From an uncultured Erysipelotrichaceae bacterium (lineage in GTDB: Bacteria > Bacillota_I > Bacilli_A > Erysipelotrichales > Erysipelotrichaceae), in NCBI GenBank assembly GCA_944325685.1, contig CALVBC010000015.1:1-61160 (forward strand): a stretch of 61,160 bases of DNA. Reading direction: 5' to 3'. Positions 45,987 through 60,620 of the stretch are shown in pieces. Every line of letters starts with the position of its first letter. Positions within the stretch are counted from its first letter, which is position 1. The translations under genes and the position numbers were made by a program. The notes under the pieces were generated by a model. It did no database searches and had not been told where the DNA came from. It saw only the letters and a list, made by a program, of their open reading frames with translations.

Positions 45987-46014
45987 TTGACAATTAAATC
46001 TTAAAACTTATGGA
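45987..46014 (+). promoter_or_regulatory. Promoter of the two-gene secreted-protein locus
   Basis: TTGACA at 45987-45992, a 16-base spacer and TATGGA at 46009-46014. It lies 30 bases before the lipoprotein gene at 46045. Confidence 0.5.
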
Positions 46015-46044
46015 TTATTAAGAGGAAAGGATCTGCAACGTAAC

Positions 46045-46287
46045 ATGAAAAGAATAATCATATTATGTCTTATGATCATAATGATCACATCATGCACCGC
46101 AAACAAAGAAGAGGAAATGATCAATTATTATGAATATTCCATTCCCAAAAGCATGCTTTCTGAAGAAACGATCGAATGGCTAGAAAAATTTAATCCTTTG
46201 CCTGATAGTTCTAAGATCGCTGTTAGTTATATACCGTATGATCTAGCACAAGCTATCGAAGAGATATACGGACCACCAGGAGAATAA
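46045..46287 (+). CDS. Short lipoprotein related to the next gene
   Basis: 80 residues. The signal peptide ends in the lipobox ITSC, so the mature part of about 63 residues is membrane-anchored outside. The segment EETIEWLEKFNPLPDSSKIA followed by VSYIPYDLAQ matches EETKEWIRKFESLP and VSYRPYELVH in the downstream protein, so the two are paralogous over about 35 residues. This copy lacks the large C-terminal domain and may be a truncated copy or a separate partner. AGGAAAGG lies 14 bases upstream, farther than ideal. Confidence 0.6.
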   Translation: MKRIIILCLMIIMITSCTANKEEEMINYYEYSIPKSMLSEETIEWLEKFNPLPDSSKIAVSYIPYDLAQAIEEIYGPPGE

Positions 46288-46325
46288 ACAAATGAAAAAA
46301 ATTAATTAATAACGTCATAAAATAA

Positions 46326-47087: not shown

Positions 47088-47166
47088 CCATAAATTCACA
47101 TATAATCTTTACTAGAGGAAAAGTGAGAATAATATAAACCGTGTAAGTTAATGGCGTACGAAAATA

Positions 47167-47202
47167 AAAAGATCATCCCTCTGATCTTTCGATGATCTTT
47201 TT
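47167..47202 (-). terminator. Terminator of dtd-folD operon
   Basis: The minus strand AAAAGATCATC / GATGATCTTTT stem is followed by TATTTTC. It overlaps the end of the DUF951 gene. Confidence 0.75.
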
Positions 47203-47370
47203 ACATTTGCGTTCAAATTCTGGCCTATCCATAATGACAACAGCACCGCAACCCATGCATTTGATCTTGACATCAGCCCCTAAGCGAATGATCTTCCAAT
47301 AGTGGCTCTTTTTACATGGGTGGTCCTTTTTCATCTGGACGACATCATCTAAGCGATAATCAGTTATCAT
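47173..47370 (-). CDS. DUF951 (YyzM-like) zinc-ribbon protein
   Basis: 65 residues of the DUF951 family, with the typical DVVQMKKDHPCKKSHYWKII and RLGADVKIKCMGCGAVVIMDR segments. A CxxC plus another Cys may bind zinc. Function unknown; homologues are small conserved Bacillota proteins. Overlaps the folD stop by four bases. Confidence 0.88.
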   Translation of the reverse strand: MITDYRLDDVVQMKKDHPCKKSHYWKIIRLGADVKIKCMGCGAVVIMDRPEFERKCKKIIERSEG

Positions 47371-48200
47371 CTTTTACCTCTTAACTCATAAGCTTTATAG
47401 ACGTTTTCCATCAACATGCATACCGTCATCGGCCCAACACCTTTAGGCACTGGTGTGATGGCTTTTACTTTATCGACCACTTTATCAAAGTCGACATCAC
47501 CACATAACTTACCATCGACATGATTGATCCCGACATCGACGACATATGCCCCTTCCTTGATATAGCTATCATCGATATAACGGGCTTGCCCAATAGCGAC
47601 AACTAAGATATCAGCAAGTCTTGTGATCGACTTTAGATCTTGAGTATTACGATGACATACAGTGACGGTCGCATCAGCGTTTAATAATAGCTTACTTAAA
47701 GGCGAACCTACTAGTGACGATCTTCCGATGACGACCGCATGTTTGCCTTTTATATCGACACCCATCTCCTTTAAGATCGCCATGACACCAAGTGGCGTAC
47801 ATGGGACAAAGCCATCTTCATGCAAAGCTAATTTACCGACATTTAATTTATTCAAACCATCGACATCCTTATCCGGATCGATATGATCCATGATCATCTT
47901 GGCATCGATATGTTTAGGTAAAGGCATCTGAACTAAGATGCCATCAACTGTATCATCTTTGTTTAGATCATCGATCAGTTTGATCAGTTCATCTTGGGTC
48001 GTCTCTTCTTCCTTTTTTATTAACAAGAATTCGATCCCTACATAGCTAGCTGCCTTTTCCTTACTTTTGATATAGGAGATACTAGCTTTATTATCACCGA
48101 CTAAGACGACGGCAAGTTTTGGTTTGACTTCTAACTTTTCGATCTTGGCCTTAAGTTCATCTTTATATCTTAAGGCTAACTCTGTCCCGTTTATGATCAT
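47367..48200 (-). CDS. folD: Methylenetetrahydrofolate dehydrogenase/cyclohydrolase
   Basis: A bifunctional enzyme interconverting methylene-, methenyl- and formyl-tetrahydrofolate. About 277 residues, with the catalytic Lys segment SYIKSKEKAASYVGI, DGILVQMPLPKHID, and the NADP-binding VIGRSSLVGSPL. The PVPKGVGPMTVCMLMENV C-terminal signature is intact. The ATG at 48200, behind GAGGAG and one base from the dtd stop, is preferred to a GTG at 48215. Confidence 0.96.
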   Translation of the reverse strand: MIINGTELALRYKDELKAKIEKLEVKPKLAVVLVGDNKASISYIKSKEKAASYVGIEFLLIKKEEETTQDELIKLIDDLNKDDTVDGILVQMPLPKHIDAKMIMDHIDPDKDVDGLNKLNVGKLALHEDGFVPCTPLGVMAILKEMGVDIKGKHAVVIGRSSLVGSPLSKLLLNADATVTVCHRNTQDLKSITRLADILVVAIGQARYIDDSYIKEGAYVVDVGINHVDGKLCGDVDFDKVVDKVKAITPVPKGVGPMTVCMLMENVYKAYELRGKR

Positions 48201-48201
48201 C

Positions 48202-48648
48202 TTATAACTCCTCACTGTCGATGATGATCGTCACTGGTCCATCATTGATCATCTCGATCTTCATATCCGCACCAAAGACACCGGTCTTGACTTCAAAGCC
48301 ACTATCTTCAAGTAGCTTATTGAAATACATATATAGCTCATTAGCGTCTTGTGGCTTCATGGCTTTGATAAAACTCGGTCTATTGCCTTTAGCACAATCA
48401 GCATATAGCGTAAACTGCGAGATACTCATGATCTTACCACCAATGGTCTTAAGATCGAGGTTCATCTTACCATTTTCATCTTCAAATACACGAAGACCAC
48501 TTACCTTTTTAGCGATCTTTTCAACTTCATTTTTGGTATCACCTTCCTTGATACCCACTAAGATCATAAAACCTTGATCGATCGCACTGTACTCTTTACC
48601 ATCGATATGGCATTTGGCATATTTAACTCTTTGGATTACGACTTTCAT
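48202..48648 (-). CDS. dtd: D-aminoacyl-tRNA deacylase
   Basis: 148 residues. Removes D-amino acids mischarged on tRNA. The active-site motifs are clear: SQFTLYADCAKGNRPSF and the cross-subunit Gly-cisPro motif in NDGPVTIIID. No relA-like gene precedes it, unlike in Bacillus. It starts eight bases after a TGC-TAGAAT box and has no ribosome site. Confidence 0.95.
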   Translation of the reverse strand: MKVVIQRVKYAKCHIDGKEYSAIDQGFMILVGIKEGDTKNEVEKIAKKVSGLRVFEDENGKMNLDLKTIGGKIMSISQFTLYADCAKGNRPSFIKAMKPQDANELYMYFNKLLEDSGFEVKTGVFGADMKIEMINDGPVTIIIDSEEL

Positions 48649-48656
48649 ACTTCGCT

Positions 48657-48665
48657 ATTCTAGCA
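48657..48665 (-). promoter_or_regulatory. Extended -10 of dtd operon (almost leaderless)
   Basis: The minus strand reads TGC-TAGAAT, eight bases, then the dtd ATG. It directly follows the T run of the upstream terminator. Confidence 0.45.
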
Positions 48666-48695
48666 CAAAAAAGCCCCCACTTTATAGTAGAGGCT
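48664..48695 (-). terminator. Terminator of the lipoprotein gene
   Basis: The minus strand has a 10-bp stem AGCCTCTACT / AGTGGGGGCT (with G-U pairs) followed by TTTTTTG. Confidence 0.8.
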
Positions 48696-48720
48696 CTTGA
48701 TTTAGTGATTTAAATTCTGA

Positions 48721-49761
48721 TTAAGCGCAAGCTTTTGTGATAGCTGTGATGAAATCACCAACTGCCATTGTACAGCTTGTAGCTAGATCTACTGGGCTGT
48801 TGTGATCGCCACCTAATTCCATACCTTCGATCTCAGCAGCTGTCTTACCAACGCAGTATTCTTCGAATGCTGCTGCTTGTTCGAACCATTCAGCACCGAT
48901 AGGAGAAGCACTTCTCATACCGTAGTCATCTTTACGATCTTGTTTTGAATCGATTGGATCAGCGCTAACGATAGTACCTGTAGCATCGAACTTAGCTGTG
49001 TTTTGAGCAACGTCGATATCTGTTAATAAGACTTTACCATCAGCATCTAATGCAACACCAGCATATGTGACATTGTATTGGACTGAACCATCACCATCAG
49101 CTGAAGCAGCTGTTGTTGAAACAGTTGTTTCTGAAGCTAAGCCATAGCTAGCAACTTCACCTTCAACAGCTGTTAAGTGTTCGTTCGCATCAGCGATCGC
49201 ATTTAAGAATTCTTGAACGCTCATCGTGCAGCTTGTTGTTAGATCAACAGGGCTGTTGTGATCGCCACCTAATTCCATATTTAATACTTCATCAACTGTT
49301 TTACCGATGCAGTATTCTTCGAAAGCGTCAGCTTGTTCATACCATTCAGCACCACCTTCGATGTTACCCATAGCAGCTGATGTCTCTTTCATAGCGTAGT
49401 CATCGCCACGTTCTCTCTTTGTGCCTTGTAGGCCTTCAGTTACGATAGCACCTGTGCCATCCCAAGTTGAAGTGTTTTGCGCAACGTCGACTTGAAGATC
49501 AACGATCTTACCTTCAGCGTCTACTGCTAATAAAGCATATGTTGTGTTAACTTCTACTGAACCTTCTTCATGATCAGCGTCAACGCTTGTAGGTGACATT
49601 GTTGTTGATTGACCAACACCCATTGAAACGGCGCCAGTAGTTGTACCAGTTGTTTCTGTCGATTCTGGTGTGTCTGTTCCTGTTGGTTCTGTGTTATTTG
49701 AACAAGCAACTAAGCTTAGAGCCATTAGACCACAGACTAATAAAGCTAATAATTTTTTCAT
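48721..49761 (-). CDS. Lipoprotein with two tandem copies of one domain
   Basis: About 346 residues. Signal peptide with lipobox LVAC, a Thr/Glu-rich linker, then two copies of a domain of about 140 residues (roughly 70-200 and 215-345). Matching pairs include VDVAQNTSTWDGTGAIV / IDVAQNTAKFDATGTIV, FEEYCIGKTVDEVLNMELGG / FEEYCVGKTAAEIEGMELGG and a shared HNSPVDL-TSCTM. The fold recalls FMN-binding-like lipoprotein domains of Clostridia, but no cofactor motif is certain. Start at 49761 follows AGGAGG by ten bases; the frame is open further upstream over the promoter. Confidence 0.85.
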   Translation of the reverse strand: MKKLLALLVCGLMALSLVACSNNTEPTGTDTPESTETTGTTTGAVSMGVGQSTTMSPTSVDADHEEGSVEVNTTYALLAVDAEGKIVDLQVDVAQNTSTWDGTGAIVTEGLQGTKRERGDDYAMKETSAAMGNIEGGAEWYEQADAFEEYCIGKTVDEVLNMELGGDHNSPVDLTTSCTMSVQEFLNAIADANEHLTAVEGEVASYGLASETTVSTTAASADGDGSVQYNVTYAGVALDADGKVLLTDIDVAQNTAKFDATGTIVSADPIDSKQDRKDDYGMRSASPIGAEWFEQAAAFEEYCVGKTAAEIEGMELGGDHNSPVDLATSCTMAVGDFITAITKACA

Positions 49762-49785
49762 TCTTTGCATTCCTCCTGCCCAAAT

Positions 49786-49814
49786 ATTATATGGGATGAA
49801 AAAAGCCATTGCAA
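49786..49814 (-). promoter_or_regulatory. Promoter of the duplicated-domain lipoprotein
   Basis: The minus strand has TTGCAA (49814-49809), a 17-base spacer and TATAAT (49791-49786), followed by a leader with AGGAGG. Confidence 0.7.
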
Positions 49815-49831
49815 GCATAAATTTCCCAAAA

Positions 49832-49846
49832 TGTGAAAACTTTCAC
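49832..49846. promoter_or_regulatory. Possible CRP/FNR- or Rex-type operator
   Basis: TGTGA-N6-TCAC, centred about 60 bases upstream of the predicted start site of the lipoprotein gene, the classical position for a class I CRP/FNR activator. Rex boxes have a similar shape. One half is imperfect. No such regulator lies in this window. Confidence 0.35.
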
Positions 49847-49902
49847 TCAAAGTTCACATGTTGAACTCATATTTAGCTTACGTGGCTTTAATATAAACTT
49901 AA

Positions 49903-51120
49903 CTAACGCTTAACTAAAAGGTCGAGATATGATGTCCCGTTCTCTGGCATATCGACGCCAAAGTAGTCGCAACAGGTCGCACCATTATCAGACATCGTCT
50001 TTCTGGTACCGACCCTAACACCATGAAGACCCTTCTTATAGATAAGTAGTGGCACATACTCTCTAGTATGTTTACTACTTCCACTATCTGGGTCATTGCC
50101 ATGGTCAGCTTGGACGATCAAGATATCATCTTCAGTGAGTAGTGGTAAGATCTTAGCTAAACCCTCATCGGCTTGCTCGAGGATCTTTTTATATTCGGTA
50201 CTATCTTGCGAGTGACCAGCTAAGTCAGTCTCTTGGATATTGGTACAGATAAAACCGGTATCGTGTTTTTTGATCGCATCGATCGTCAGTTGCATGCATT
50301 CAGGTGTTGGGACACATGAATAGCTCTCACCTAGATCATTGGCGACGATATCAGCGACTTTACCGATAAGGACACAGGGGATACCCGCTTTGGTCAAGAT
50401 CGTCGGTGCTTGGACATTCTTATTGACGCCATAGCCTAAGTGACGACATTGATATCCTTGTTCGTAGGATTTTGACTTAGCACTGGCGATACCGATGTAT
50501 TTGCCATCTTTGACTTCTTCGGCATTGTATAGATCTTGCATATTATTACCGGTACCACCAAATACGATGACCCTACCAACGGTGACCACTTCTCTTACAA
50601 GCTCTGCGATCTCATGTTCCTTCTCAAAGGAGATGTAATCAAGTGGTGCTGTGACGTTATAGCACATGCCAAGATCAGCTTCTAAGTTATCCGCGACCGT
50701 GACATAATCATCACATACGACATATCTAAGACCATCTCTTTCTTTATACTCGACCTTATGACCGTGCTTTTTAAGATGCTCATAGACGATATCGACCTTC
50801 TGTTGAAAAGGATGGACTTCAGGTTTCTTTGGTAATGTGCCCATGATCTCTTGGTGACCCATAAAGGTATCAGCCCCAAAGTGCATAAGGGCACTTCTGC
50901 CATAGTTTGCTTCATCATTAAACTTCATGAAGTCACTTTCTTTACCATAGGCATTCATAAGACCTAATTTCTCTAAGGTCGGTAACTTAAGATCAGGATG
51001 ATCTTTTAAGATGCTCCTTAAAGTATTGGTATTTTCATCACCTGGTCTTACGACCTTGGCATCTTCCATCGCGCCGATGCCAAAACCATCTAAGACGATG
51101 ATGATAAAACGCTTACTCAT
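49903..51120 (-). CDS. yhfW: YhfW: phosphopentomutase-like enzyme
   Basis: 405 residues of the alkaline-phosphatase superfamily, phosphopentomutase (DeoB) group. Metal and phosphate ligands: VLDGFGIGAM, the nucleophile region GDENTNTLRS, ETDLAGHSQD, QADHGNDP and SKHTREYVP. DeoB moves phosphate between C1 and C5 of ribose; the position after a YhfS-like gene and the lack of nucleoside genes point instead to E. coli YhfW, which is uncharacterised. It overlaps yhfS by eight bases and is the last gene of the cluster; no clear terminator follows. Confidence 0.85.
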   Translation of the reverse strand: MSKRFIIIVLDGFGIGAMEDAKVVRPGDENTNTLRSILKDHPDLKLPTLEKLGLMNAYGKESDFMKFNDEANYGRSALMHFGADTFMGHQEIMGTLPKKPEVHPFQQKVDIVYEHLKKHGHKVEYKERDGLRYVVCDDYVTVADNLEADLGMCYNVTAPLDYISFEKEHEIAELVREVVTVGRVIVFGGTGNNMQDLYNAEEVKDGKYIGIASAKSKSYEQGYQCRHLGYGVNKNVQAPTILTKAGIPCVLIGKVADIVANDLGESYSCVPTPECMQLTIDAIKKHDTGFICTNIQETDLAGHSQDSTEYKKILEQADEGLAKILPLLTEDDILIVQADHGNDPDSGSSKHTREYVPLLIYKKGLHGVRVGTRKTMSDNGATCCDYFGVDMPENGTSYLDLLVKR

Positions 51121-52210
51121 CTTTGGCCTCCTTGATACTTTCCTTTAAGATCCTGATGATCGTATCAGCCCCTGCGCGCATCGGGTTGATGCGGATCATG
51201 TAATCAGCACGTGATGGATCATCCTTTAAGAAAGTGCCTGATGCTCGATAGAATAGCGGGGTGATCTCATATTTGGACTCTGAACCAACTGGATTTGGTA
51301 AAGCCCCTTGTCTTTCAGCTATTTTCAAGACCTTTTTAGCGATCGGCTCTTTAAAGGTCACAAGTAATACCTTGGATTGCGCATTAGCGATAAAGGCATC
51401 ATCGATCTCCTTGATCTCACCTTTGTTTAGATATTCTAAGACCTTGTTGGCTTCGATATTGCTGATAGCTAATAAGACTGGCGCATATGTTAGACCTCTT
51501 AAGACCTCTAATGCTTCAAAGCCCTGGGTTTGACAACCACCTGAGTAGTGCATGGCTCTGATCTTATCGATATATTCCGCTTTTCCAGTCACAACACCGA
51601 TGCCTTCTGGTCCTTGTAATTTGAAAGTAGAAAAACATGATAGATCTGCTCCACACTGCGTTCCGATCTTTTTGACCTTCATGACGGCATAGTTATCATC
51701 AGTCACAACAGGTAGACCATAGCCTTTGATCACCTTGACCACTTCTTCTAGGTCATAGCTATCGCTTGGTGCCTGTCTTGTATATTGCACTAATGCCCCT
51801 TTGATATCCTTATTCTCTTCAAGGCATTTTCTGATACTATCAAGGTCATTGTAGTCACAAGCTACTGGCTCTAACCCTAACATCTCAAAGCTTGTCTTTG
51901 TTGTGCTATAGATCGGTGCTGTATGGACTAATACCTTGTCATTAGCCTTAAATATGCTGCTTAGGGCATATCTTATAGCACCTGTACCGCTGCCTCTTAC
52001 TAAGATCGCTTTTTCATCGTCGAAGAAATCGGCGATGACCTTTTCGACCTTGATCGTCGTAAGTGGCTCATTACCTGGCTGATGGACACCGAGATCACCG
52101 CGTGTCAAAAGCTCTGAGCCAGTGAAATGGCGCATTATCGTATCGACAAACTTGAATTGACATTGTGTTGCTTCTTCAAGCGTCATGCTTTCTAATGGAT
52201 ATACTTGCAT
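51113..52210 (-). CDS. yhfS: YhfS: PLP-dependent aminotransferase-like enzyme
   Basis: 365 residues, fold-type I PLP enzyme. The Schiff-base Lys lies in CFSTFKLQGPEG, the pyridine-N Asp in PVVTDDNYAV, and the small-domain segment in RINPMRAGADT. It resembles E. coli YhfS and distantly the cysteine-desulfurase / SelA-like enzymes. Elimination, transamination or cleavage of an amino acid is possible; the substrate is unknown. It lies ten bases after the amidase-like gene. Confidence 0.82.
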   Translation of the reverse strand: MQVYPLESMTLEEATQCQFKFVDTIMRHFTGSELLTRGDLGVHQPGNEPLTTIKVEKVIADFFDDEKAILVRGSGTGAIRYALSSIFKANDKVLVHTAPIYSTTKTSFEMLGLEPVACDYNDLDSIRKCLEENKDIKGALVQYTRQAPSDSYDLEEVVKVIKGYGLPVVTDDNYAVMKVKKIGTQCGADLSCFSTFKLQGPEGIGVVTGKAEYIDKIRAMHYSGGCQTQGFEALEVLRGLTYAPVLLAISNIEANKVLEYLNKGEIKEIDDAFIANAQSKVLLVTFKEPIAKKVLKIAERQGALPNPVGSESKYEITPLFYRASGTFLKDDPSRADYMIRINPMRAGADTIIRILKESIKEAKDE

Positions 52211-52219
52211 CGTTTCCTC

Positions 52220-53194
52220 CTATATCTTGTATCCTTCGATAAAGTAGTTATTGAGATCGAGGAAATAACGCTCGATCAGTTTATCGTGGACTTCATTGAT
52301 CTTTTTACCTAAGGCTAATAATTTAGCGATCTTGTCTTCCTTTGATTCTGACATCAAAAGATATGCCATCCCAAGACCCTCTTGTGGTAAAGACATCGCG
52401 GTTGCCCCAGCGATATTACAGACCCTGACATAGCCCTTATTAGCCCTTTCTTGATAGGCTTTGGTCCTTTCATCAAAGTGACCATATAATGAATCACCAA
52501 GACCATCGATATCGATCGGTCCCTCACTTATAAGTAAGACATCACATTCCTTTAGAGTCTTCTCTAAAAATGGTACTAAGGTATTCCTAGGTGTATGACT
52601 ATCCAATAATTCAATGACCTTAGAATCGATACCTTCATACTCTTTATCAGAATAGACGATACCACAGTCTTCACTTGGCTTGATATTGATCGCGACTTCG
52701 ATCGCCTTATATAAGACCTCTTTGTCACGGGCCATAAAGCCGATCGAGCTTGTTGCCATCATCCCATCGGTATTGGGCTTAGTCGGTGCTTTGATCATAT
52801 CCTTTTCGATCAGTTTTGATATAAAGCTCAAGATATTGACACTGATAGCTGGGGCTAAAACACTACCACCGCCATCATTACCGATACCAAGGTCATTGAT
52901 CCCACTGAAGACATTGACCGCTGTACCTGATGAAGAACCTGACATGATCCGTCCGCTGATCGGATTGATGACTTCTGTATCGATGGCTCTACCAGCTAGT
53001 TGTGACTTCTTATCGATCGTATGTAGACTAAAGCCTTCTTTCTCTAATTTATGCATCAAAGTATTAGGGATCGAAGCGACATTTTTGATCCCGACTAGTA
53101 ATTTACTAGGATCAGCGTCTAAAAGCTTGACGACGGTATGATATGGATCAAGCTCAGCGACGCGATGCCTTAGCTCATATTCTAGCATGTCCAA
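52220..53194 (-). CDS. Amidase-signature-like protein
   Basis: 324 residues, shorter than usual for the amidase family (about 450). It keeps the Ser-Ser-Lys triad pattern: Lys37 in VGIKNVAS, Ser87/Ser88 in SGSSSGTA and Ser111 in GNDGGGS. The 24-residue gap between the serines is the one found in FAAH and GatA. E. coli yhf clusters lack such a gene. It overlaps yhfX by 13 bases and so belongs to the pathway. Hydrolysis of an amide or ester is likely, though the divergent motif context leaves room for another use. Confidence 0.7.
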   Translation of the reverse strand: MDMLEYELRHRVAELDPYHTVVKLLDADPSKLLVGIKNVASIPNTLMHKLEKEGFSLHTIDKKSQLAGRAIDTEVINPISGRIMSGSSSGTAVNVFSGINDLGIGNDGGGSVLAPAISVNILSFISKLIEKDMIKAPTKPNTDGMMATSSIGFMARDKEVLYKAIEVAINIKPSEDCGIVYSDKEYEGIDSKVIELLDSHTPRNTLVPFLEKTLKECDVLLISEGPIDIDGLGDSLYGHFDERTKAYQERANKGYVRVCNIAGATAMSLPQEGLGMAYLLMSESKEDKIAKLLALGKKINEVHDKLIERYFLDLNNYFIEGYKI

Positions 53195-54351
53195 TCATCC
53201 TCGATCTTTTTACCAACGGCATCATATAACGCGATTTTAGGATCATTACGCTTTAATCCTTCGACACAAGCCACATAGCTTCTGGTGGTAAAGATCTGGG
53301 TCCTAAAGCACATGACGACGGTATCGGATACCTTGGCATTATGATCTAATTCAAAGTGATAATCGATCGAATCATCATCTGGTGCTTTGATGCCATATTC
53401 TTTTGCTTCTTTAAAGCTTTCACCAACTAAGGCATTAGCCATATGACCACGACGATAAGTACCACCACCATAGACATAAGCCTTGTCTTTAAAGTTATGC
53501 GATACTTCACTGACATATACATAACCGACCTTTTCCACCTCTTCATGGACCTTATGGAGTGGTGTCGTACCGGTAAGACCATGACCTGGTTCACCACTTG
53601 TACCACCTAACGCTTTGATCGTTGGGATCGAAGCTGCACAGGTAGCACTTGGGATATTGATCTCAAAATCTTTATAGCCAACACCTTTTAAGATATCGAT
53701 AGCCCTTTCTAATCCCTTTAGATTATCCGTCTTTTCGATCTTGTCATCTTGACTATCGTATAAAAGGGCTGGGAAAGCAGTCACACCACCGATCTTGACG
53801 TTGCTGAGGCTTTCGACTTCATTTATGACATCAACAAATTCATCGGTTGAAAAACCAGCGACTTGACCTGAATAAAGCTCAGCATCATCATCAGTGATCC
53901 TGATAAGGAGCTTTTGGATAATACCTAATTCCTTAGCTACTTCATTGACCTCTTTGATCTTGTCGATCGAATAGACCGTCATATAATCAGGCTTAGATGC
54001 GATGATCTTCTTTAAGGCATGTCTTGGCGTTTGGACTAAATGGCCGACATTAGCGATATGGATACCATTATCGATCATGACTAAAGCCTCTTTAAAATCA
54101 ACGACGACCGCCCCTTTAAAGCCGATATCCATGAGCATCTTAGCTACCTCAGGATTTCTTCCGATCTGCTTGAGCATGAAAAACAGTTCGATGCCATTAG
54201 CTTTTGCCACCTCTAACATCTTCGTCGCATTCTCTTTGATCGTATCAAGATCTAAGATATAAGTATCTGGTAAGATCAGACCTTCCTTGTGCGCTTTGAA
54301 GGCATATTCGATGAGTTTAGGATTATTCTCTATACATCTATCTAAAAACAT
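53182..54351 (-). CDS. yhfX: YhfX: PLP-dependent racemase-like enzyme
   Basis: 389 residues, fold-type III PLP enzyme of the alanine-racemase-like YhfX group. The Schiff-base Lys lies in FFMLKQIGRNPE near residue 58; a TIM-barrel follows with GGVTAFPALLYD and GTSGEPGHGLTGTTP, the phosphate-binding region. Racemisation or decarboxylation of an amino acid derivative is expected. Coupled with the amidase-like gene, 8 bases after php. Confidence 0.85.
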   Translation of the reverse strand: MFLDRCIENNPKLIEYAFKAHKEGLILPDTYILDLDTIKENATKMLEVAKANGIELFFMLKQIGRNPEVAKMLMDIGFKGAVVVDFKEALVMIDNGIHIANVGHLVQTPRHALKKIIASKPDYMTVYSIDKIKEVNEVAKELGIIQKLLIRITDDDAELYSGQVAGFSTDEFVDVINEVESLSNVKIGGVTAFPALLYDSQDDKIEKTDNLKGLERAIDILKGVGYKDFEINIPSATCAASIPTIKALGGTSGEPGHGLTGTTPLHKVHEEVEKVGYVYVSEVSHNFKDKAYVYGGGTYRRGHMANALVGESFKEAKEYGIKAPDDDSIDYHFELDHNAKVSDTVVMCFRTQIFTTRSYVACVEGLKRNDPKIALYDAVGKKIEDDWTC

Positions 54352-54359
54352 AGGCTATC

Positions 54360-55262
54360 TCACTTATCTAAGATCCGCGCTGGATTTAAGACCAAGAGCT
54401 TATTTAGATCTTCATCGCTGATGCCATATTCCTTAAGCAGTGGCACTGTTATCTTCATGACACTTAGATAACCCTTTTCACCAAAGCTCGTGAAATAGGT
54501 CCTTCTAGAGATGTCATTGGATAAGACGATATGATCACCATATCCTTTTTCGATGAGTTTCATGATATTATGCGCTCTGACTTCATCGCTCATATAGGCG
54601 CTTTTACCACAGGTATCAAAACCGATATTGACACCATTTTTCAAAAGTTCTAAGTGATATTCCGTATCATCGATGAGATCTTGATGACCGATGATGATCT
54701 TATCAGGATCAACACCTTTATCTAATAATGTCTTGACCGTTTCAAAAGCGGTCACTTTACCAGTATGCGTTGATACGGCAAAGCCCGTTTTAGAACTAGC
54801 GATACCAGCCGCTTCTAAGACCTTTTTCTCTTGGCCTACAAAGCCCTTTGGCGAAGAAGCGATCTCAGCGATGATGCCAGCTTTGATATCGGTATCATCG
54901 ATCCCGACAGTGAGTTCCTTGATAAAGGTCTCAGCGATCTCTTCAGCGCTTTTTTGTGTAAGTTCTTCAGGATGATACTCACTTAAGTAGTAACCCGTAG
55001 CTGCCACGATCTTTAAGCCAGTGATCTCAGAGATCCTCTTTAGTTTATGGATGTCCCTGTACATGTCGATCGTACTGACTTCAATAGCGCTATTCACTCC
55101 TAACGCCATCATCTTTTCGATCTCAGGGACGACCTCTTCAACGGTCTCGATCTTAGAGACACCATCGTGTCTTACATGGTCGAGATCGATATTGAAGTGT
55201 TCATGAGCCATCGTGATGCCTAGTTCTTCTTTTTTGATATTTCCTAATACAGTTTGGATCAT
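54360..55262 (-). CDS. php: Php: phosphotriesterase-family hydrolase (YhfV)
   Basis: 300 residues of the amidohydrolase superfamily, phosphotriesterase homology group. Metal ligands in order: MAHEHFNID, the bridging Glu in IIAEIASSPKG, VSTHTGK, IIGHQD and the Asp in VLSNDISRRTYF. In E. coli the corresponding gene php lies in the yhf operon. Many relatives are lactonases or phospho-sugar lactonases. The substrate here is unknown. Confidence 0.9.
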   Translation of the reverse strand: MIQTVLGNIKKEELGITMAHEHFNIDLDHVRHDGVSKIETVEEVVPEIEKMMALGVNSAIEVSTIDMYRDIHKLKRISEITGLKIVAATGYYLSEYHPEELTQKSAEEIAETFIKELTVGIDDTDIKAGIIAEIASSPKGFVGQEKKVLEAAGIASSKTGFAVSTHTGKVTAFETVKTLLDKGVDPDKIIIGHQDLIDDTEYHLELLKNGVNIGFDTCGKSAYMSDEVRAHNIMKLIEKGYGDHIVLSNDISRRTYFTSFGEKGYLSVMKITVPLLKEYGISDEDLNKLLVLNPARILDK

Positions 55263-55286
55263 TTTCTATTACCTCATATATACAAA

Positions 55287-55307
55287 GGGACATCATCAAG
55301 ATGTCCC
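55287..55307 (-). other. Stem-loop between yhfU and php
   Basis: A perfect 8-bp stem GGGACATC / GATGTCCC with a 5-base loop. It is followed on the minus strand by only TTTGTAT. It lies in the only gap over 30 bases within the operon downstream of yhfT, and may act as an attenuator or an RNA processing/stabilising structure. Confidence 0.5.
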
Positions 55308-55317
55308 TACGATTTCT

Positions 55318-55698
55318 TTATTCCGGTCTTCCTTCTGACTTGTCGATCAGGGCTCTGACCAAAGCAGGAACGACCTGTTCAGTATGGGATTTAACAAACC
55401 CAAAAGCCTTGTGATCGCCAGAATAGACCATGTGGCGGATCTGCTTTTCGTTTGGACAACTACCTTGTCTTGAGACAGTGAGGCATTTACCATAACCTAA
55501 GACCATGATCGCAGTAGCGATACTACCACCACCACCGGTCATACAACTACCTAAGTAGTAATCAGATTCACCATTTTTGACATTCTTAGCAGCGATCATA
55601 TCTGGATGTTCAAATGGTTCTGCTTCCCCTTTGAACTGCTTTTCAATGATCTGCTTGATCTGTAAGGACGTTAGTCCACAACATTCGATCTTCAACAT
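55318..55698 (-). CDS. yhfU: YhfU: DUF2620 protein
   Basis: 126 residues of the YhfU/DUF2620 family. A glycine-rich loop (GSCMTGGGGSIATAIMVLGY) and several cysteines stand out. There is no membrane segment. In E. coli it neighbours the membrane protein YhfT, as here (four-base gap), suggesting the pair forms one transport or regulatory unit. Function unknown. Confidence 0.85.
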   Translation of the reverse strand: MLKIECCGLTSLQIKQIIEKQFKGEAEPFEHPDMIAAKNVKNGESDYYLGSCMTGGGGSIATAIMVLGYGKCLTVSRQGSCPNEKQIRHMVYSGDHKAFGFVKSHTEQVVPALVRALIDKSEGRPE

Positions 55699-55702
55699 CT
55701 GC

Positions 55703-57019
55703 TTAACCTAATACGACAAAGCCGAATCCGACCATGATGTTGAAGAGGATACCGACGACAACAGCGGCGATAGGACCAACAGCTGTCTTTGGTAGTCTTT
55801 GACCTGTAACTTCGTTTAGTGCATAGAAGCCACCGACGATCATGAGACCTACAGCGCCCCAAGTAGCATTACCAGCTAAGAATGAACCAGCGACGATCGC
55901 TAATGATATACAGGATACCATCGCATCACGGATATAGTCACCGCACTTAGTGAGTTCTGGGAATTTCGATAGACCTTTACCTAGTAAGCCTAGTAATTGG
56001 ATCTCGATGAATTCAACGATGAAACCTAAGATCGGTGCTAACCACCATGTTGGAGCTAAAGCACCTACTAACATGACAGTCGTTAGACCAACAGCTTGAT
56101 AGACACCTGTAGCTAGTGATGTTGAAACGATAAGTGGGATGAAGGCGATGATGACACCGACCATAGCGAGTTCAAATGAACCGAGGTTACCACTTAATAC
56201 AGCTGGTGCTAAGATATATGGTTGATAAGCTTGGGCTAATACAGCGATACCTAGAGCATTCAAAGCACCTTGGATACATAGATATAACCAGTTTGATTTG
56301 ATGCGGTTAGCATTCTTAGTGAATAGGTTCTCTGTATCGGCATCTTGTTCGATAGCAGTTGTTTTCTTTGAGTTTTTGACAGCGTATACGATAAGGCAGA
56401 TCATACCAGCTAACATCGCGAATGTATATGGATATAAGCTTACAGAGATCGAACCGATCGTAACTGAGCCAACGATCGTGCAGAGCATGTAGATGATCGC
56501 TTGGATGATACCGGTGATGATACCATTCTTAGCACCAAACTGGCTTGCGATAGCGACAGCTGGGAACATCGAGAAGACTGGTAGTGCAGGTGATGAGATC
56601 TGGGTCAAGTCATTCAAGAAGTTGTAAGGTAGAGCTTGGAATGCTTGGTTGATAAGATCAGTACCAAATGCACAGATAGCACCGTAGATACCACCGATGA
56701 TGAGAGCGACCCACTTATTAGGTGACCAAGCACCTAAGCAGTCAGTTGCGATCAACGTTAAGTGAACGGCGATAAGACCAGAACCTAACCATTGGCTAAA
56801 ACCAGTTAGGACCCAACCGATACCCATACCAGTTACGACAACAGCGAATTCGGCACGAGTCATTCTGCCTTCCATGAATTCAGGGAAAACAGGACGAGCA
56901 CCATCGTTGAAGTTAGAAATGTTCATGTGCGACAGTAATGAAGCCCATGCACAGATCGCGATCAAGACGATAGCACGGAAAATGAGTGGAAACTCAAATG
57001 TAGTAACAATACCTTCCAT
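55703..57019 (-). CDS. yhfT: YhfT: multi-pass membrane protein, likely transporter
   Basis: 438 residues with about 11-12 hydrophobic helices, one short cytoplasmic loop after about 215 residues (KNSKKTTAIEQDADTENLF), and no ATP-binding or PTS motif. It matches E. coli YhfT in context and size. Uptake of the pathway substrate is inferred. A proper AGGAGG ribosome site precedes it. Confidence 0.85.
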   Translation of the reverse strand: MEGIVTTFEFPLIFRAIVLIAICAWASLLSHMNISNFNDGARPVFPEFMEGRMTRAEFAVVVTGMGIGWVLTGFSQWLGSGLIAVHLTLIATDCLGAWSPNKWVALIIGGIYGAICAFGTDLINQAFQALPYNFLNDLTQISSPALPVFSMFPAVAIASQFGAKNGIITGIIQAIIYMLCTIVGSVTIGSISVSLYPYTFAMLAGMICLIVYAVKNSKKTTAIEQDADTENLFTKNANRIKSNWLYLCIQGALNALGIAVLAQAYQPYILAPAVLSGNLGSFELAMVGVIIAFIPLIVSTSLATGVYQAVGLTTVMLVGALAPTWWLAPILGFIVEFIEIQLLGLLGKGLSKFPELTKCGDYIRDAMVSCISLAIVAGSFLAGNATWGAVGLMIVGGFYALNEVTGQRLPKTAVGPIAAVVVGILFNIMVGFGFVVLG

Positions 57020-57049
57020 AAATTTTCTATCCTCCTAATTTTGAAAGTA

Positions 57050-57415
57050 TCATTTATCGCGGCAAGCCGCGAGCACGTTATTGATATGCATCAAAGCGTA
57101 GTCTTTTTCGACATCATTGAGTCGATCATCACTTAATGCAATGACATCTTTTAAGATATCTAAAGACTCTTCATATGTACCAAGACCTTTGATCTCCTCT
57201 TGGATCATCTCTGGTACTGGATCGATATCTTCATGTGTATGACACCTAGAAAAAGCTGCACACAAATGAGCGATGAAAGTCCCAGCGTTTTCTTCGCTTA
57301 GTTCGATACCGTGTTTTTGATTAAACATCGCGATGATCTTTTCGACATCAGCACGGTCTTTCTTATCGATCATGCCACCTTCTTCATAAAGATCCAAGCG
57401 TTCTTTAAAGTCCAT
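57050..57415 (-). CDS. yhfY: YhfY: PRD-like domain protein
   Basis: 121 residues, helical, resembling a single PTS regulation domain (PRD) as in E. coli YhfY. Candidate histidines lie in FIAHLCAAFSRCHTHED and ALMHINN. It contains no DNA-binding part. It may sense PTS phosphorylation or a metabolite and tune the pathway; that is inference. It overlaps the zinc-ribbon gene by 11 bases. Confidence 0.8.
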   Translation of the reverse strand: MDFKERLDLYEEGGMIDKKDRADVEKIIAMFNQKHGIELSEENAGTFIAHLCAAFSRCHTHEDIDPVPEMIQEEIKGLGTYEESLDILKDVIALSDDRLNDVEKDYALMHINNVLAACRDK

Positions 57416-57794
57416 GTTTTTTCTTCTCCTTAGCTTTACGGGCTTTGATCGCTTCCTTCACATCTGGCTTTTCAAACGGCACATAGCGCAGATGGAAGAT
57501 CTTGTCAGTGATGATCAAGCATAAGCGATCGTATACGTTCATAAGAGCCAACATGATCGATAGTACGATGATCAAGGCGACGTAGCTTGACACCGTGCCC
57601 AAGTTCATCATCCCGATCATAAGTATGCTGACGACGATAGCGACAAAAAGCGTCCGCGTATACTTGAGCATCCTTTGGCTGCGACCGTCGATCATGAGCT
57701 CCATATTACAATGGGGACACTTGATGACCTTCTTAACTTCTTTAAAGGTGTGTGATATATGATTGCCACACCTTGGGCATGTAATATCTCTCAT
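57405..57794 (-). CDS. Zinc-ribbon membrane protein
   Basis: 129 residues: an N-terminal zinc ribbon (CPRCGNHISHTFKE then IKCPHCNMEL, two CxxC pairs), two membrane helices at about 47-85, and a basic cytoplasmic tail rich in Lys. First gene of the yhf operon behind its promoter; E. coli has no clear counterpart. A role in controlling the transporter or regulator is possible but unsupported. Confidence 0.75.
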   Translation of the reverse strand: MRDITCPRCGNHISHTFKEVKKVIKCPHCNMELMIDGRSQRMLKYTRTLFVAIVVSILMIGMMNLGTVSSYVALIIVLSIMLALMNVYDRLCLIITDKIFHLRYVPFEKPDVKEAIKARKAKEKKKHGL

Positions 57795-57811
57795 ATCTCT
57801 CCTATGGCTTC

Positions 57812-57840
57812 ATTATAAATAGTTCACATACTAAATTCAA
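57812..57840 (-). promoter_or_regulatory. Promoter of the yhf operon
   Basis: The minus strand has TTGAAT (57840-57835), a 17-base spacer and TATAAT (57817-57812), followed by an AGGAGAG ribosome site before the ATG at 57794. The strong match suggests it is switched off by repression rather than switched on. Confidence 0.7.
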
Positions 57841-57846
57841 TACAAA

Positions 57847-57862
57847 ATACAAAATTTTGTAT
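57847..57862. promoter_or_regulatory. 16-bp palindromic operator of the yhf operon
   Basis: ATACAAAATTTTGTAT is a perfect palindrome seven bases upstream of the -35. A further AATACAAAA half-site repeat adjoins it on the promoter side. It is the obvious candidate site for the YhfZ regulator encoded just upstream. Confidence 0.6.
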
Positions 57863-57886
57863 ATTGATATTTATGACCATTATAAA

Positions 57887-57922
57887 AGGCCCTTTTATAT
57901 AAGTATTATGTTAAAAGAGCCT
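57887..57922 (-). terminator. Terminator after yhfZ
   Basis: The minus strand AGGCTCTTTTA / TAAAAGGGCCT stem (one G-U pair, 14-base loop) is followed by TTTATAAT. It insulates the regulator gene from the yhf operon promoter. Confidence 0.75.
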
Positions 57923-57934
57923 ATAAATAAATTA

Positions 57935-58858
57935 CTAATAACTTGGGGTTATCTTACCCTCTAATACGAGCCTTTGGATATTCAAAACGGTCGTGACATC
58001 TAATAGTTCTCTGATCAGATAATCGATGATCTCATTGTCACTTCTAGTTATGACAGCCGCGATACTACCATCATCGATCCCATCGATCGGGACCATCTTG
58101 ATACGGACCCTTTTATCTAATGCTTCATCTTCATTCATGACCGATGCATCGATATCACCATAGATGATCTTATTTAGGATCTGAGAATATTCTAACTGGA
58201 CTAATTCGACATCTTTATCCTTACAGACATAGTTTACCAAAGCGCTCTGGTCGACTGATGTAAGGTCGATACCGACCTTCATCCCATCTTTGATATCATC
58301 TTCACTATCATCATGGAACATCATCACATGGCGATTGAGATATGACCTTTCACCAAAGTCCATGACGATCTTGATGATATCACCATATTCTTCGATAAAT
58401 CTTTTAGCTGATAGTAAAGAGACGATCGCAAAGTCATAGCGCTTTTGGATGACCATACTGATCCGATTCTTACTACCACGCATGTAGGCAAGGTTTACTG
58501 GTAATTCATAGTTATTTTCCATAGTGGCAATGATACCAGATGCCAATCCTTCATAGCGCTTGGAATAAGGCAAAGGCATAGCGCCTAATAGTGAATTGAT
58601 ACCGGCATACTTGAGCAAGGTCTTTACATTCTTCTTGATGAGATATGAGCCTAAATGGCCTTTAGACTCAAGCCTGATCGCTCCTGATTCGACTAAGGTC
58701 TTGATGCCATTTTGCACAGTACCCCTAGCTAAAGATAGCGCATCGGTAAATTCTGAGACCGTCGGGATCTTTTCCCCGAGCGGATAGCGAAGTAATTCCC
58801 GCGCTAATTTAGTGGTCGCGATCGCATTTTTGCCAAGTAGGTTGATGTATTGTTCCAT
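57935..58858 (-). CDS. yhfZ: YhfZ: GntR-like transcription regulator
   Basis: 307 residues. The N-terminal winged helix-turn-helix (about 10-75) reads KIPTVSEFTDALSLARGTVQ and NGIKTLVESGAIRLESKGHL, similar to GntR-type motifs. The C-terminal 210 residues look like a periplasmic-binding-type ligand domain (SKRYEGLASGI, DFAIVSLLSAKR, GDIDASVMNEDE), as in E. coli YhfZ. It should bind the palindrome at 57847-57862 and respond to a pathway metabolite. It starts six bases after an extended -10 box. Confidence 0.85.
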   Translation of the reverse strand: MEQYINLLGKNAIATTKLARELLRYPLGEKIPTVSEFTDALSLARGTVQNGIKTLVESGAIRLESKGHLGSYLIKKNVKTLLKYAGINSLLGAMPLPYSKRYEGLASGIIATMENNYELPVNLAYMRGSKNRISMVIQKRYDFAIVSLLSAKRFIEEYGDIIKIVMDFGERSYLNRHVMMFHDDSEDDIKDGMKVGIDLTSVDQSALVNYVCKDKDVELVQLEYSQILNKIIYGDIDASVMNEDEALDKRVRIKMVPIDGIDDGSIAAVITRSDNEIIDYLIRELLDVTTVLNIQRLVLEGKITPSY

Positions 58859-58864
58859 GTATAG

Positions 58865-58873
58865 ATTATATCA
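58865..58873 (-). promoter_or_regulatory. Extended -10 promoter of yhfZ (leaderless)
   Basis: The minus strand reads TGA-TATAAT, then six bases and the ATG at 58858. No ribosome site. Confidence 0.6.
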
Positions 58874-58893
58874 TCAAAATGACATAGCTTGAT

Positions 58894-59511
58894 TTATTTC
58901 TTGATATCTTTAGCCCAATCATCACGGATCTTTTTATTGTTCCTGACATCACTGATAACTTCATTTATGACCATATAATTACATCTTGTACCATGACTAT
59001 CACTGTGGTAGTTACTAGCTCTATCCCTACTGATACCGATATCACTAGCTACCTTTATCGCATCGATATTAGCTCCTAAAAAGATGAATTCCCATCCTAA
59101 TTCCTTTTTCGCTTCGATTAAACTCTTGATAGCTTTTAAACTATATTCATGACTACTGTTTTCTTTTCCATCAGTCGTGATCACAAACAAGGTCTTATCA
59201 GGGACATCTTTCATCTCTTTGTGGACATCACTTATATGACATATGGCATCACCGATCGCATCAAACAAGGCTGTACAACCACCTACTACATAATCATCTC
59301 TTGTCATATACGTGATATCCTTGATATCGACACGATCATGGATGACTTTAGAAAAGTCATTGAATAATACCGTCGATATATAAGCTTTGCCTTTTAGTTT
59401 GCGTTGTTTATCAACTAAGGAATTAAAGCCACCGATCGTATCCTCTTCTAAGCCCTGCATCGAGCCACTACGGTCTAATACAAATATGATCTCACTGAAA
59501 TTTTCCTTCAT
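58894..59511 (-). CDS. VWA-domain protein
   Basis: 205 residues, essentially one von Willebrand factor A domain. The MIDAS metal site is intact: FVLDRSGSMQG (DxSxS), Thr in GGCTALFDAIGDA and Asp in VITTDGKENSS. It resembles the YegL/TerY group of cytoplasmic VWA proteins; no signal peptide or membrane segment is seen. A GGAGG ribosome site is present. It lies next to a macro-domain gene, possibly in one transcript. Confidence 0.85.
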   Translation of the reverse strand: MKENFSEIIFVLDRSGSMQGLEEDTIGGFNSLVDKQRKLKGKAYISTVLFNDFSKVIHDRVDIKDITYMTRDDYVVGGCTALFDAIGDAICHISDVHKEMKDVPDKTLFVITTDGKENSSHEYSLKAIKSLIEAKKELGWEFIFLGANIDAIKVASDIGISRDRASNYHSDSHGTRCNYMVINEVISDVRNNKKIRDDWAKDIKK

Positions 59512-59559
59512 ATTATCATCCTCCTTGATGATAGTATAGGGATATTAGTGATGAAGATG

Positions 59560-59576
59560 GTCGCTTAAAAAGCGAC
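59560..59576. repeat. 7-bp inverted repeat between VWA and macro genes
   Basis: GTCGCTT / AAGCGAC with a 3-base loop and no T run. It could be a weak transcript hairpin in the gap between the macro-domain and VWA genes. Confidence 0.4.
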
Positions 59577-59582
59577 ATTTAT

Positions 59583-60527
59583 CTAAACACCTAAGAGCTT
59601 TTGATCAAAAGTGAATAGAGCTTCATTGATCTTATATATGTCATAGATCTGATTCTTGATAAAGTATTCGATGATCAGATCAAACTTGTAAGAATGAGAC
59701 AAAGCAAAACCAGCCTTTCTTAATATCTCCTTTGTCTCATCTAGCGATAATCTTAAAGCGATAGCTAAAGCTAAGACCGTTGACTTTGATGGATGATAAT
59801 CCTTACTAGAGCGGATCTTAGAGAATAACTTACGGTCGATATTAGCCCTTTTATAACACTCACTATCACTGATACCTGCCTCATCGATCTTGCGGAATAA
59901 CATATCCGCAAAACTCTCATCGATATTAGCCAGTACATCATCTAGTGACGCTTCTTTTAAAAGGAATGATGTATATCTTAGTCTTTTGTCGATATGTTTA
60001 TTGACATAGTTATCATCGATATAGGCTTTGATATCAGAATATAGCTTAGTACTTATGACATATGTATCATGATCATATATGACAAGATATACTATTAGAT
60101 CATGATCTTTTAAAAAGCCACTGATCTCATCTATCGCTATCTTAAAAGCCTCAGCTTTAGGATAGCCATAGATACCTGATGAGATAAGGGGAAAAGCGAT
60201 CGAATCTAATTCCTTTTCTAAAGCGATCTCTAATGCCCTTCTATAGCAAGACCTTAATAGTCTTTCTTCATCATGATGACCATCGATATATTTAGGACCT
60301 ACCGTATGGATGATGTAATGGCAAGGAAGATCATAAGCACCAGTTATCTTCACATCACCGGTAGCACAACCACCAAGTGTCTTACACTCCAATAGCAAGT
60401 TAGGACCAGCGGCTTGATGGATCATCCCATCAACGCCACCACCGCCTAAAAGGCTATTATTAGCCGCATTGACGATCGCATCGACTTTCATCTTACATAT
60501 ATCATTTCTAACGATAAATAATGGCAT
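59583..60527 (-). CDS. Macro-domain protein with C-terminal helical domain
   Basis: 314 residues. The N-terminal macro domain (about 1-165) has VDAIVNAANNSLLGGGGVDG, the ADP-ribose-binding ISSGIYGYPK loop and KYIDGHH, typical of the YmdB/MacroD-like O-acetyl-ADP-ribose or ADP-ribosyl hydrolases. The C-terminal part (about 205-310) reads SDSECYKRANIDRKLFSKI and TVLALAIALRLSLDETKEIL, resembling an XRE-type helix-turn-helix domain found fused to several effector domains in Bacillota. The fusion suggests ADP-ribose-linked signalling or regulation. Confidence 0.87.
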   Translation of the reverse strand: MPLFIVRNDICKMKVDAIVNAANNSLLGGGGVDGMIHQAAGPNLLLECKTLGGCATGDVKITGAYDLPCHYIIHTVGPKYIDGHHDEERLLRSCYRRALEIALEKELDSIAFPLISSGIYGYPKAEAFKIAIDEISGFLKDHDLIVYLVIYDHDTYVISTKLYSDIKAYIDDNYVNKHIDKRLRYTSFLLKEASLDDVLANIDESFADMLFRKIDEAGISDSECYKRANIDRKLFSKIRSSKDYHPSKSTVLALAIALRLSLDETKEILRKAGFALSHSYKFDLIIEYFIKNQIYDIYKINEALFTFDQKLLGV

Positions 60528-60620
60528 AATACACTTCCCGAGATAAGTGTAACACTCATTTTGTCCATAATAAAAGAGGATACCCTAAGATACCCTCTCT
60601 CTTTAGTGATTTAATGATGA

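Follow-up and report, generated by a model that had tools for sequence, protein, structure and literature searches.

The contig CALVBC010000015.1 of an uncultured Erysipelotrichaceae bacterium (61,160 nucleotides, analysed as a whole and referred to below as the window; host genome of 1.36 Mb) contains ten same-strand open reading frames (ORFs) at positions 49903-58858 of the minus strand. According to curated models, this row encodes all eight protein families of the Escherichia coli yhfSTUVWXYZ genes, plus a zinc-ribbon membrane protein and an amidase-type enzyme, and runs from yhfZ (58858) to yhfW (49903). The initial annotation of the locus, made from the sequence alone, had described a complete yhf set with the same two additional genes, and both the curated models and the comparison with E. 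coli bear this out. The eight families are contiguous, the PRD score of YhfY being marginally under the Pfam cut-off. The nine genes downstream of yhfZ form an operon whose members overlap or are separated by gaps of 55 bases or less, as calculated from the ORF coordinates with a corrected amidase start (the ATG at 53188 yields 322 aa; the 324-aa version of the ORF begins at TTG). The features of the locus are as follows.

57935-58858, minus strand: yhfZ, winged-helix regulator with the YhfZ C-terminal binding domain (NF041241, 358.6 bits at a cut-off of 260; PF14503, 224.5 bits; match to structure 2ozz)
57887-57922, minus strand: inverted repeat past yhfZ, possible terminator (seen by eye; unlisted in the repeat scan)
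57842-57867, no strand assigned: YhfZ box, predicted palindromic operator (position weight matrix [PWM] score 34.2; conserved in 86/101 loci)
57812-57840, minus strand: promoter-like TTGAAT-17-TATAAT of the structural operon (10/12 matches; equally frequent in shuffled sequences)
57405-57794, minus strand: zinc-ribbon membrane protein of the TIGR04104 type (30.8 bits, cut-off 45)
57050-57415, minus strand: yhfY, stand-alone PRD protein (PF00874, 22.8 bits versus 23)
55703-57019, minus strand: yhfT, membrane protein and predicted transporter of a divergent subtype (PF10797, 354 bits; structure model with a predicted local distance difference test score [pLDDT] of 91)
55318-55698, minus strand: yhfU (DUF2620), predicted RpiB/LacAB fold with catalytic-type Cys52 (PF10941, 110 bits; Foldseek, VIA-align, and hhalign)
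55286-55308, minus strand: perfect 9-bp stem-loop in the yhfU-php gap, possible attenuator or processing site (terminator-like sites are equally frequent in shuffled sequences)
54360-55262, minus strand: php (yhfV), metal hydrolase of the phosphotriesterase family (PF02126, 230.7 bits; six metal ligands)
53182-54351, minus strand: yhfX, fold-type III pyridoxal phosphate (PLP) enzyme (PF21279 [YhfX-like_C], 125.5 bits; PF01168, 52 bits; 4kbx, 314 bits; K61)
52220-53188, minus strand: short amidase-signature enzyme (PF01425, 26.4 bits, just under the gathering score of 27; Lys-Ser-Ser triad)
51113-52210, minus strand: yhfS, fold-type I PLP enzyme (PF22475, 146 bits; 4j8l, 400 bits)
49903-51120, minus strand: yhfW, phosphopentomutase-like metalloenzyme (NF009049, 573.5 bits at a cut-off of 254; metal ligands kept, cap different)

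Conservation and protein families of the cluster

For comparison, 140 loci were called in other genomes, from which 23 duplicates and two loci with too few core genes (L068 and L103) were removed, leaving 115. The full yhfT, U, V, X, S, and W set is present in 83 of the 115 loci, which excludes chance assembly and supports the initial description of a conserved, catabolic-looking cluster. The amidase gene, found in 71/115 loci, is therefore a common component of the yhf system outside E. coli.

Structure matches lead back largely to E. coli: YhfX (4kbx) and YhfS (4j8l), both deposited as uncharacterised, are the best matches for the respective window proteins, Php is closest to 4lef/1bf6 ("phosphotriesterase homology protein"), and the YhfZ domain to 2ozz ("hypothetical"); the solved structures nearest YhfW are phosphopentomutases. 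The six metal ligands of Php (H20, H22, E133, H166, H193, and D250) are retained in at least 97% of 99 sequences. The carbamylated lysine bridge of the phosphotriesterase family is absent from Php, in which E133 occupies that place, presumably as in E. coli Php. YhfX keeps the PLP lysine K61 (at least 97% of 106 sequences) and the N-terminal barrel of alanine racemase Alr; the PF21279 domain stands in place of the Alr C-terminal domain. The amidase triad K35-S85-S109 (numbered from the ATG; K37-S87-S111 from the TTG) is retained in at least 95% of 81 sequences, with a serine spacing of 24 that we take to agree with GatA. The cysteines of the zinc-ribbon protein are retained across 6 aligned sequences, and H50 and H110 of YhfY in at least 90% of 20.

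YhfW scores 153.4 bits against the DeoB model TIGR01696 (cut-off 341.2). Residues D10, D306, H311, D347, H348, H359, and T98, corresponding to all phosphopentomutase metal ligands and the Thr/Ser position, are kept in YhfW, where they presumably serve as metal ligands and Thr nucleophile. Position 98 is occupied by Thr in 87 and by Ser in 10 of 97 sequences, which rules out an enzyme that is dead through a lost nucleophile. In a single MAFFT alignment, R226/R230 of DeoB stand opposite His/Gly in all 97 YhfW sequences, and the cap region is different. Judged from these comparisons, YhfW is not an ordinary DeoB. By the initial annotation's own condition, the yhf reading would fail if the proteins belonged to unrelated characterised families with other neighbours, a true DeoB among them; they belong instead to Yhf-specific families, and their neighbours are conserved.

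YhfU was modelled with AlphaFold (pLDDT 96.5). The top 23 rows of a Foldseek search are RpiB or LacAB proteins (best E-value 1.5e-4), and the top 23 rows of a VIA-align search are of the RpiB, LacAB, or DhuI types (Z from 12.6 to 7.9; next row, Z 7.4), with 6fxl_C as the best match (Z 12.6, 113 residues, 3.1 Å). Profile comparison by hhalign gave P 8.3e-5 (probability 61) with RpiB and P 8.2e-6 (probability 84) with the SFCGS family. Asp46, Cys52, Thr54, Gly55, and Gly57 of YhfU align with D59, C65, T67, G68, and G70 of RpiB, so that Cys52, invariant in 45/45 YhfU sequences, falls opposite the catalytic C65 at the glycine loop. As modelled, YhfU has the RpiB/LacAB isomerase fold with a catalytic-type cysteine. 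The RpiB residues D8-H9, H98, R133, and R137, which are invariant in seven RpiB proteins and which we take to be substrate residues, have no counterpart among the invariant residues of YhfU; since they are not kept, the substrate of YhfU probably differs from that of RpiB. An EIIB component of the phosphotransferase system (PTS) is a less likely identity of YhfU, as, among the families listed, IIB-cellobiose appears only at rank 28 (Z 7.2), far below RpiB. For YhfT, a fusion of the DUF4311 and DUF4310 membrane proteins is ruled out by hhalign probabilities of 0.2 and 2.2.

The YhfZ box and co-regulated genes

A palindrome of 26 positions with the consensus TCAATATACAAAATTTTGTATATTGA flanks yhfZ. 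It lies within 200 bases of the gene, with up to 8 mismatches of 26, in 86/101 loci, compared with a mean of 4.5 and a maximum of 8 for random positions (20 rounds, same loci). In the window, the palindrome is located between yhfZ and the next gene, just upstream of the promoter-like sequence (57840-57812). On a matrix built without the window's site, it is the sole match scoring at least 9 in 61 kb; a search of its genome with a 22-mer, allowing 3 mismatches, likewise hit this place alone. Judged by this comparison, the YhfZ box is a conserved operator beside yhfZ, in agreement with the earlier suggestion that the cluster has its own control. Box-like sites in E. coli are weak (18.1 and 14.4), no box scoring at least 8 was found in Cetobacterium, and Vibrio halioticoli has one weak match, away from yhfZ. 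The inverted repeat at 57887-57922 may end the yhfZ transcript. An Rfam scan of 46000-60600 returned no riboswitch match at gathering scores.

Boxes were also found at other genes in relatives. Near the clusters, boxes scoring at least 15 precede nagB in Clostridium sp. OS1-26 (L102, 27.7), the amidase gene at five loci (L123, L142, where the box is inside the called start, L147, L152, and L191), and the PF00144 gene at two (L046 and L126), and a box precedes a GlcD-type oxidase gene (L130 and L142) in Oceanobacillus polygoni (25.2) and Salirhabdus (30.0). A pattern search of 20 whole genomes yielded 18 places, of which 16 are at yhf loci by coordinate comparison; a search of 57 whole genomes yielded 35, of which 26 are within 6 kb of yhfT and 5 more were matched by hand to boxes found near the clusters with the matrix. 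Three of the six off-cluster matches (one in G037, two in G080) score below 20 and were taken as chance. The three off-cluster sites scoring at least 20 all precede PBP4B-type or lactate dehydrogenase-electron transfer flavoprotein (Etf) genes: a PBP4B-type gene 83 bases downstream in Clostridium polynesiense (32.5), a PBP4B-type lipoprotein gene in a Lachnospiraceae genome (30.5 and 26.0), and etfB, etfA, and a GlcD-type gene in C. tertium (33.9), the EtfA of which has a ferredoxin-like start. The Lachnospiraceae box has an aroE-like gene (by eye) in divergent orientation. An etfB-etfA-glcD-type row encodes a D-lactate dehydrogenase/Etf complex in Anaerobutyricum (PMC7702098).

Recruited genes and the candidate substrate

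Neighbour genes were analysed by contrasting the 234 ORFs that lie in co-directional runs within three genes of the core with the 994 other non-core ORFs of the same loci. The glucosamine-6-phosphate deaminase gene nagB accounts for 16 of the in-run ORFs versus 2 of the others, and PF00144 for 15 versus 3. An unselected clustering of neighbours (ORFs of at least 100 aa) produced ten families with at least three in-run loci, in which nagB (16 loci in, 1 out; p 2e-10) and PF00144 (13 in, 3 out; p 5e-7) stand out; unlabelled YhfY (18 in, 0 out) provided an internal positive control, and the next family is one close-knit group (p 0.002).

The 16 loci with nagB in the co-directional run (16/115) contain deaminases that group into 12 sequence clusters at 70% identity, or 9 at 60%, encoded mostly after yhfW, after yhfX, or in the yhfX-amidase gap, and at one locus (L079) three genes upstream of yhfZ. 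The number of clusters and the different operon positions argue for repeated recruitment. All eight in-operon deaminases scanned (L142, L102, L197, L198, L065, L155, L192, and L083) are above the NagB cut-off; the window's genome carries nagB outside the yhf operon. PBP4B is the best model for the eight PF00144 proteins scanned at the clusters (seven in-run and that of L188 just beyond), for that of L094, and for two unlinked ones (312 and 242 bits), all scoring below the cut-off of 385. According to PMC5061867, the PBP4B gene belongs to the E. coli murQ operon. In one Bacillaceae locus (L186), the operon extends through three further genes: one nucleoside-hydrolase-like, one of PF00144 (the second at this locus), and one NagZ-like of family GH3. 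A glmS gene downstream in Lacrimispora/Hungatella was left unused as evidence, being on the opposite strand in one related group.

YhfX also occurs outside full clusters. Nine of 13 alphaproteobacterial YhfX proteins from plasmid records were examined, and a sugar-type ATP-binding cassette (ABC) permease and ATPase flank YhfX in all nine; a ROK regulator and an M20 deacylase are present in eight and unmatched in L249. At two loci (L162 and L249), the row continues with a gene for a SIS protein that resembles NagB-II (275 and 267 bits against a cut-off of 430). A single actinobacterial locus, in Embleya, comprises a ROK regulator, an amino-acid permease, YhfX, a ROK kinase, and a NagB-II-like SIS protein (179 bits). 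As far as these gene rows indicate, YhfX can be accompanied, alongside unrelated transporters, by an enzyme of the glucosamine-6-phosphate deaminase type.

The initial annotation had proposed an imported compound joining an amino acid to a phosphorylated pentose or similar sugar. A sugar joined to something else remains supported; an amino acid and a pentose are less so, because the genes that are recruited or co-regulated suggest glucosamine-6-phosphate together with a 2-hydroxy acid, for example lactate. The genome-context survey that the annotation had recommended likewise recovered the conserved yhf neighbours; the recurrent additional genes are nagB and PBP4B-type hydrolases, not a pentose gene. 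Muramic acid is glucosamine with a D-lactyl ether. Given that glucosamine-6-phosphate deaminase, lactate oxidation, and muramic-operon hydrolase genes are recruited or co-regulated, we tentatively prefer, with somewhat less than even confidence, the reading that the yhf genes form a YhfZ-controlled system for catabolism of glucosamine bearing a 2-hydroxy acid, most likely muramic acid or its lactam, acyl, or peptide derivative.

In the proposed route, YhfZ, which has a ligand-binding-type domain, would bind the palindrome at 57842-57867, a site located by comparison, and repress the operon. Secreted PBP4B-type hydrolases, preceded by boxes in some relatives, could trim the compound outside the cell; YhfT would import it, and YhfY may provide a link to the PTS. 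The amidase and Php would strip amide, lactam, or lactone groups, after which YhfX and YhfS, as PLP enzymes, would work on the liberated amine and detach the side group. YhfU, judging from its modelled fold, may isomerise the sugar or sugar phosphate, and YhfW, with its retained metal site, may move the phosphate. Both ends of the route are suggested by the recruited and co-regulated genes: glucosamine-6-phosphate would be converted to fructose-6-phosphate by NagB, and lactate would be oxidised by the GlcD-type enzyme. A more specific proposal, which we consider doubtful, is a MurQ-independent route for muramic acid, its lactam, or a muramyl fragment. Here the hydrolases would free the 2-amino group, and YhfS or YhfX would afterwards remove the 3-O-lactyl group by beta-elimination, with D-lactate and a glucosamine-6-phosphate precursor as the products. 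Beta-elimination of the lactyl group by a PLP enzyme is chemistry that would be barred for an N-acetylated sugar.

Several observations weigh against muramic-type catabolism. The nagB, PBP4B, and GlcD genes are all outside the window's operon, the E. coli yhf cluster has no nagB, and nagB is missing from the runs of 99/115 loci, some of which are ended by contig ends. Genome-wide, nagB is found in 29/30 genomes with yhf versus 28/30 without it, which makes its mere presence uninformative, and the enrichment p values treat related loci as independent. Seven of the nine alphaproteobacterial YhfX loci have no SIS gene within 10 kb, and none of the curated GlcD, PBP4B, and NagB-II matches reaches its cut-off. 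GlcD-type genes with a box were found in three genomes only, and the sole YhfZ box found in the window's genome is the operon's own. No MurQ-like etherase or SIS family is listed for the ten cluster genes, the rest of the genome being outside that search; the ether-cleavage step would therefore have to fall to the PLP enzymes. Finally, the YhfT model has no Foldseek match under 1e-3 and a best VIA Z of 4.8; its weak VIA rows (VcINDY, CitS, and TRAP), all below Z 5, prove nothing.

The enrichment of nagB and the pair of PLP enzymes with an amidase would also fit a different glucosamine conjugate, also ending in glucosamine-6-phosphate, with an amino acid or acyl side group and with the lactate genes serving something else. 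The M20 deacylase that accompanies YhfX at eight of the nine alphaproteobacterial loci examined and the amino-acid permease of Embleya are in keeping with such a side group. The GlcD-type genes headed by a YhfZ box in three genomes, which represent two classes, are not, one of them being part of a lactate dehydrogenase-Etf row, and we regard this alternative as unlikely.

Catabolism of a glycated amine, i.e., an Amadori- or Heyns-type substrate, would make the NagB or SIS protein a deglycase that releases fructose-6-phosphate and an amino acid. E. coli yhf adjoins frlABCDR, the Embleya YhfX row with its amino-acid permease, ROK kinase, and SIS protein has a frl-like layout, and Gfr deglycases give glucose-6-phosphate or fructose-6-phosphate plus lysine (PMC12675984). 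Since all eight in-operon deaminases scanned exceed the NagB cut-off, and since PBP4B and lactate oxidation genes would be superfluous, we consider it quite improbable.

The initial idea, in which the substrate is an amino compound bearing a ribosyl or another pentosyl group and YhfW would be a true phosphopentomutase, draws on the retained metal site and Thr/Ser of YhfW, the RpiB fold of YhfU, and a uridine-type nucleoside hydrolase gene downstream in four non-duplicate Bacillaceae loci (L186, L187, L188, and L190). The replacement of R226/R230 by His/Gly in 97/97 YhfW sequences, the different cap, and the recurrence of nagB rather than any pentose gene make a pentose substrate less likely, and this explanation appears very unlikely overall. 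Sugar-free catabolism of a D-amino acid or peptide by YhfX/YhfS, with the sugar-related genes as bystanders, could account for the two PLP enzymes, the amidase, the Embleya permease, and the PBP4B-type hydrolases, whose relatives act in D-amino-acid chemistry, and is the least probable of all, given that in Alphaproteobacteria YhfX is encoded within an ABC operon of the sugar type that includes a ROK regulator, and that the folds of YhfU and YhfW are those of sugar-phosphate enzymes.

Distribution and comparison with known systems

YhfT was found in 39/244 genomes of the window's family and in 12/392 of a phylum sample; above the cut-off, it occurs in 7/299 genomes of the family of the Merdimonas genome and 18/299 of the order of Salirhabdus. 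Among the best 80 of 270 YhfS relatives are proteins from Clostridium, Lachnospiraceae, Bacillaceae genera, Paenibacillaceae, Spirochaetales, Sebaldella, and others. Plasmid records added Cetobacterium and V. halioticoli, and viral contigs gave no match to the YhfT patterns.

Six Erysipelotrichaceae-type loci (L061, L062, L063, L069, L070, and L073) have a second pair of Php and YhfS paralogues after yhfW (30-32% and 43-47% identity to the best query). Both YhfT/YhfU subtypes, window-like and E. coli-like, occur in tandem in L053 (G188:C22), and L068 (G558:C35) encodes a divergent YhfT homologue (23% identity to E. coli) and, within 13 kb, shows no further labelled Yhf gene. A tyrosine-phosphatase-like protein is encoded near yhfZ or php in L047, L048, L049 (a PF13350 copy), and L053, and a PHP-domain histidinol phosphatase-like protein (by eye) near yhfZ or nagB in the Bacillaceae loci L186-L190, L192, and L198. 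In L042, one flank carries a ChbG/YdjC-type deacetylase and an esterase-like gene, and PTS genes lie past yhfZ (EIIC by Pfam; EIIA and an antiterminator by eye). In V. halioticoli (L164, 1635-5710), yhfZ is preceded by a set of PTS genes, of which EIIC was identified by Pfam, by a gene for a DUF7916 protein, and by a gene that looks porin-like by eye. In the window, the gene that follows yhfW (48721-49818) encodes a lipoprotein-like protein of 365 aa, without a Pfam match, whose two halves resemble each other; L150 carries a close counterpart of this gene at the corresponding position, together with a dtd-like gene. Upstream of yhfZ are a vWA-like ORF (by eye, no Pfam match; 58894-59511) and, beyond it, a gene whose product combines a macro domain with an additional C-terminal part (59583-60527).

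The open PubMed Central papers searched give no function for the yhf cluster (subscription papers and preprints are mostly outside this scope), in accordance with its initial description as unassigned in E. coli. In PMC7513527, YhfX, DUF2620, and PRD are among the genes that distinguish one clade of Lactobacillus rhamnosus. The yhf-type system itself is already known; the operator, the unlinked regulon members, the DUF2620 fold, and the candidate end products are new here. In E. coli K-12, the eight yhfSTUVWXYZ genes are unassigned, and the products of four have solved structures that are orphans; the operator, the DUF2620 fold, the recurrent end enzyme, and the unlinked regulon together provide a short list of substrates for K-12 knock-outs. 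If the substrate is indeed of the muramic type, bacteria of several phyla would own a second, PLP-based and MurQ-free salvage of cell-wall sugar.

The E. coli K-12 cluster resembles that of the window in having all eight families on one strand with yhfZ beside the operon; its gene order is different, it has neither the amidase nor the zinc-ribbon gene, and the window's YhfT represents a divergent subtype with about 32% identity to E. coli YhfT. The E. coli murQP-PBP4B operon likewise combines a PBP4B-type secreted hydrolase with catabolic genes, whereas the MurQ and MurP families are lacking among the window's ten genes; the MurQ products, N-acetylglucosamine-6-phosphate and D-lactate (PMC5061867), are the acetylated counterpart of the proposed yhf products. 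The lct lactate dehydrogenase-Etf operon is matched by the C. tertium genes behind the YhfZ box, although these are separate from the yhf cluster itself. RpiB/LacAB isomerases share with YhfU the fold, the D-x5-C-x-T-G-x-G loop, and the aligned catalytic cysteine, and differ in D8-H9, H98, R133, and R137, which are unmatched among the YhfU invariants. The frl/gfr systems for glycated lysine also act on a sugar conjugate, and frl is adjacent to yhf in E. coli, whereas the window's cluster has no deglycase or kinase gene. The EF_0829-0833 cluster (SFCGS-DUF4310-4312) presents a similar row of small Gly-rich Cys, PRD-like, amidohydrolase-like, and membrane proteins, but its membrane proteins show no relationship to YhfT.

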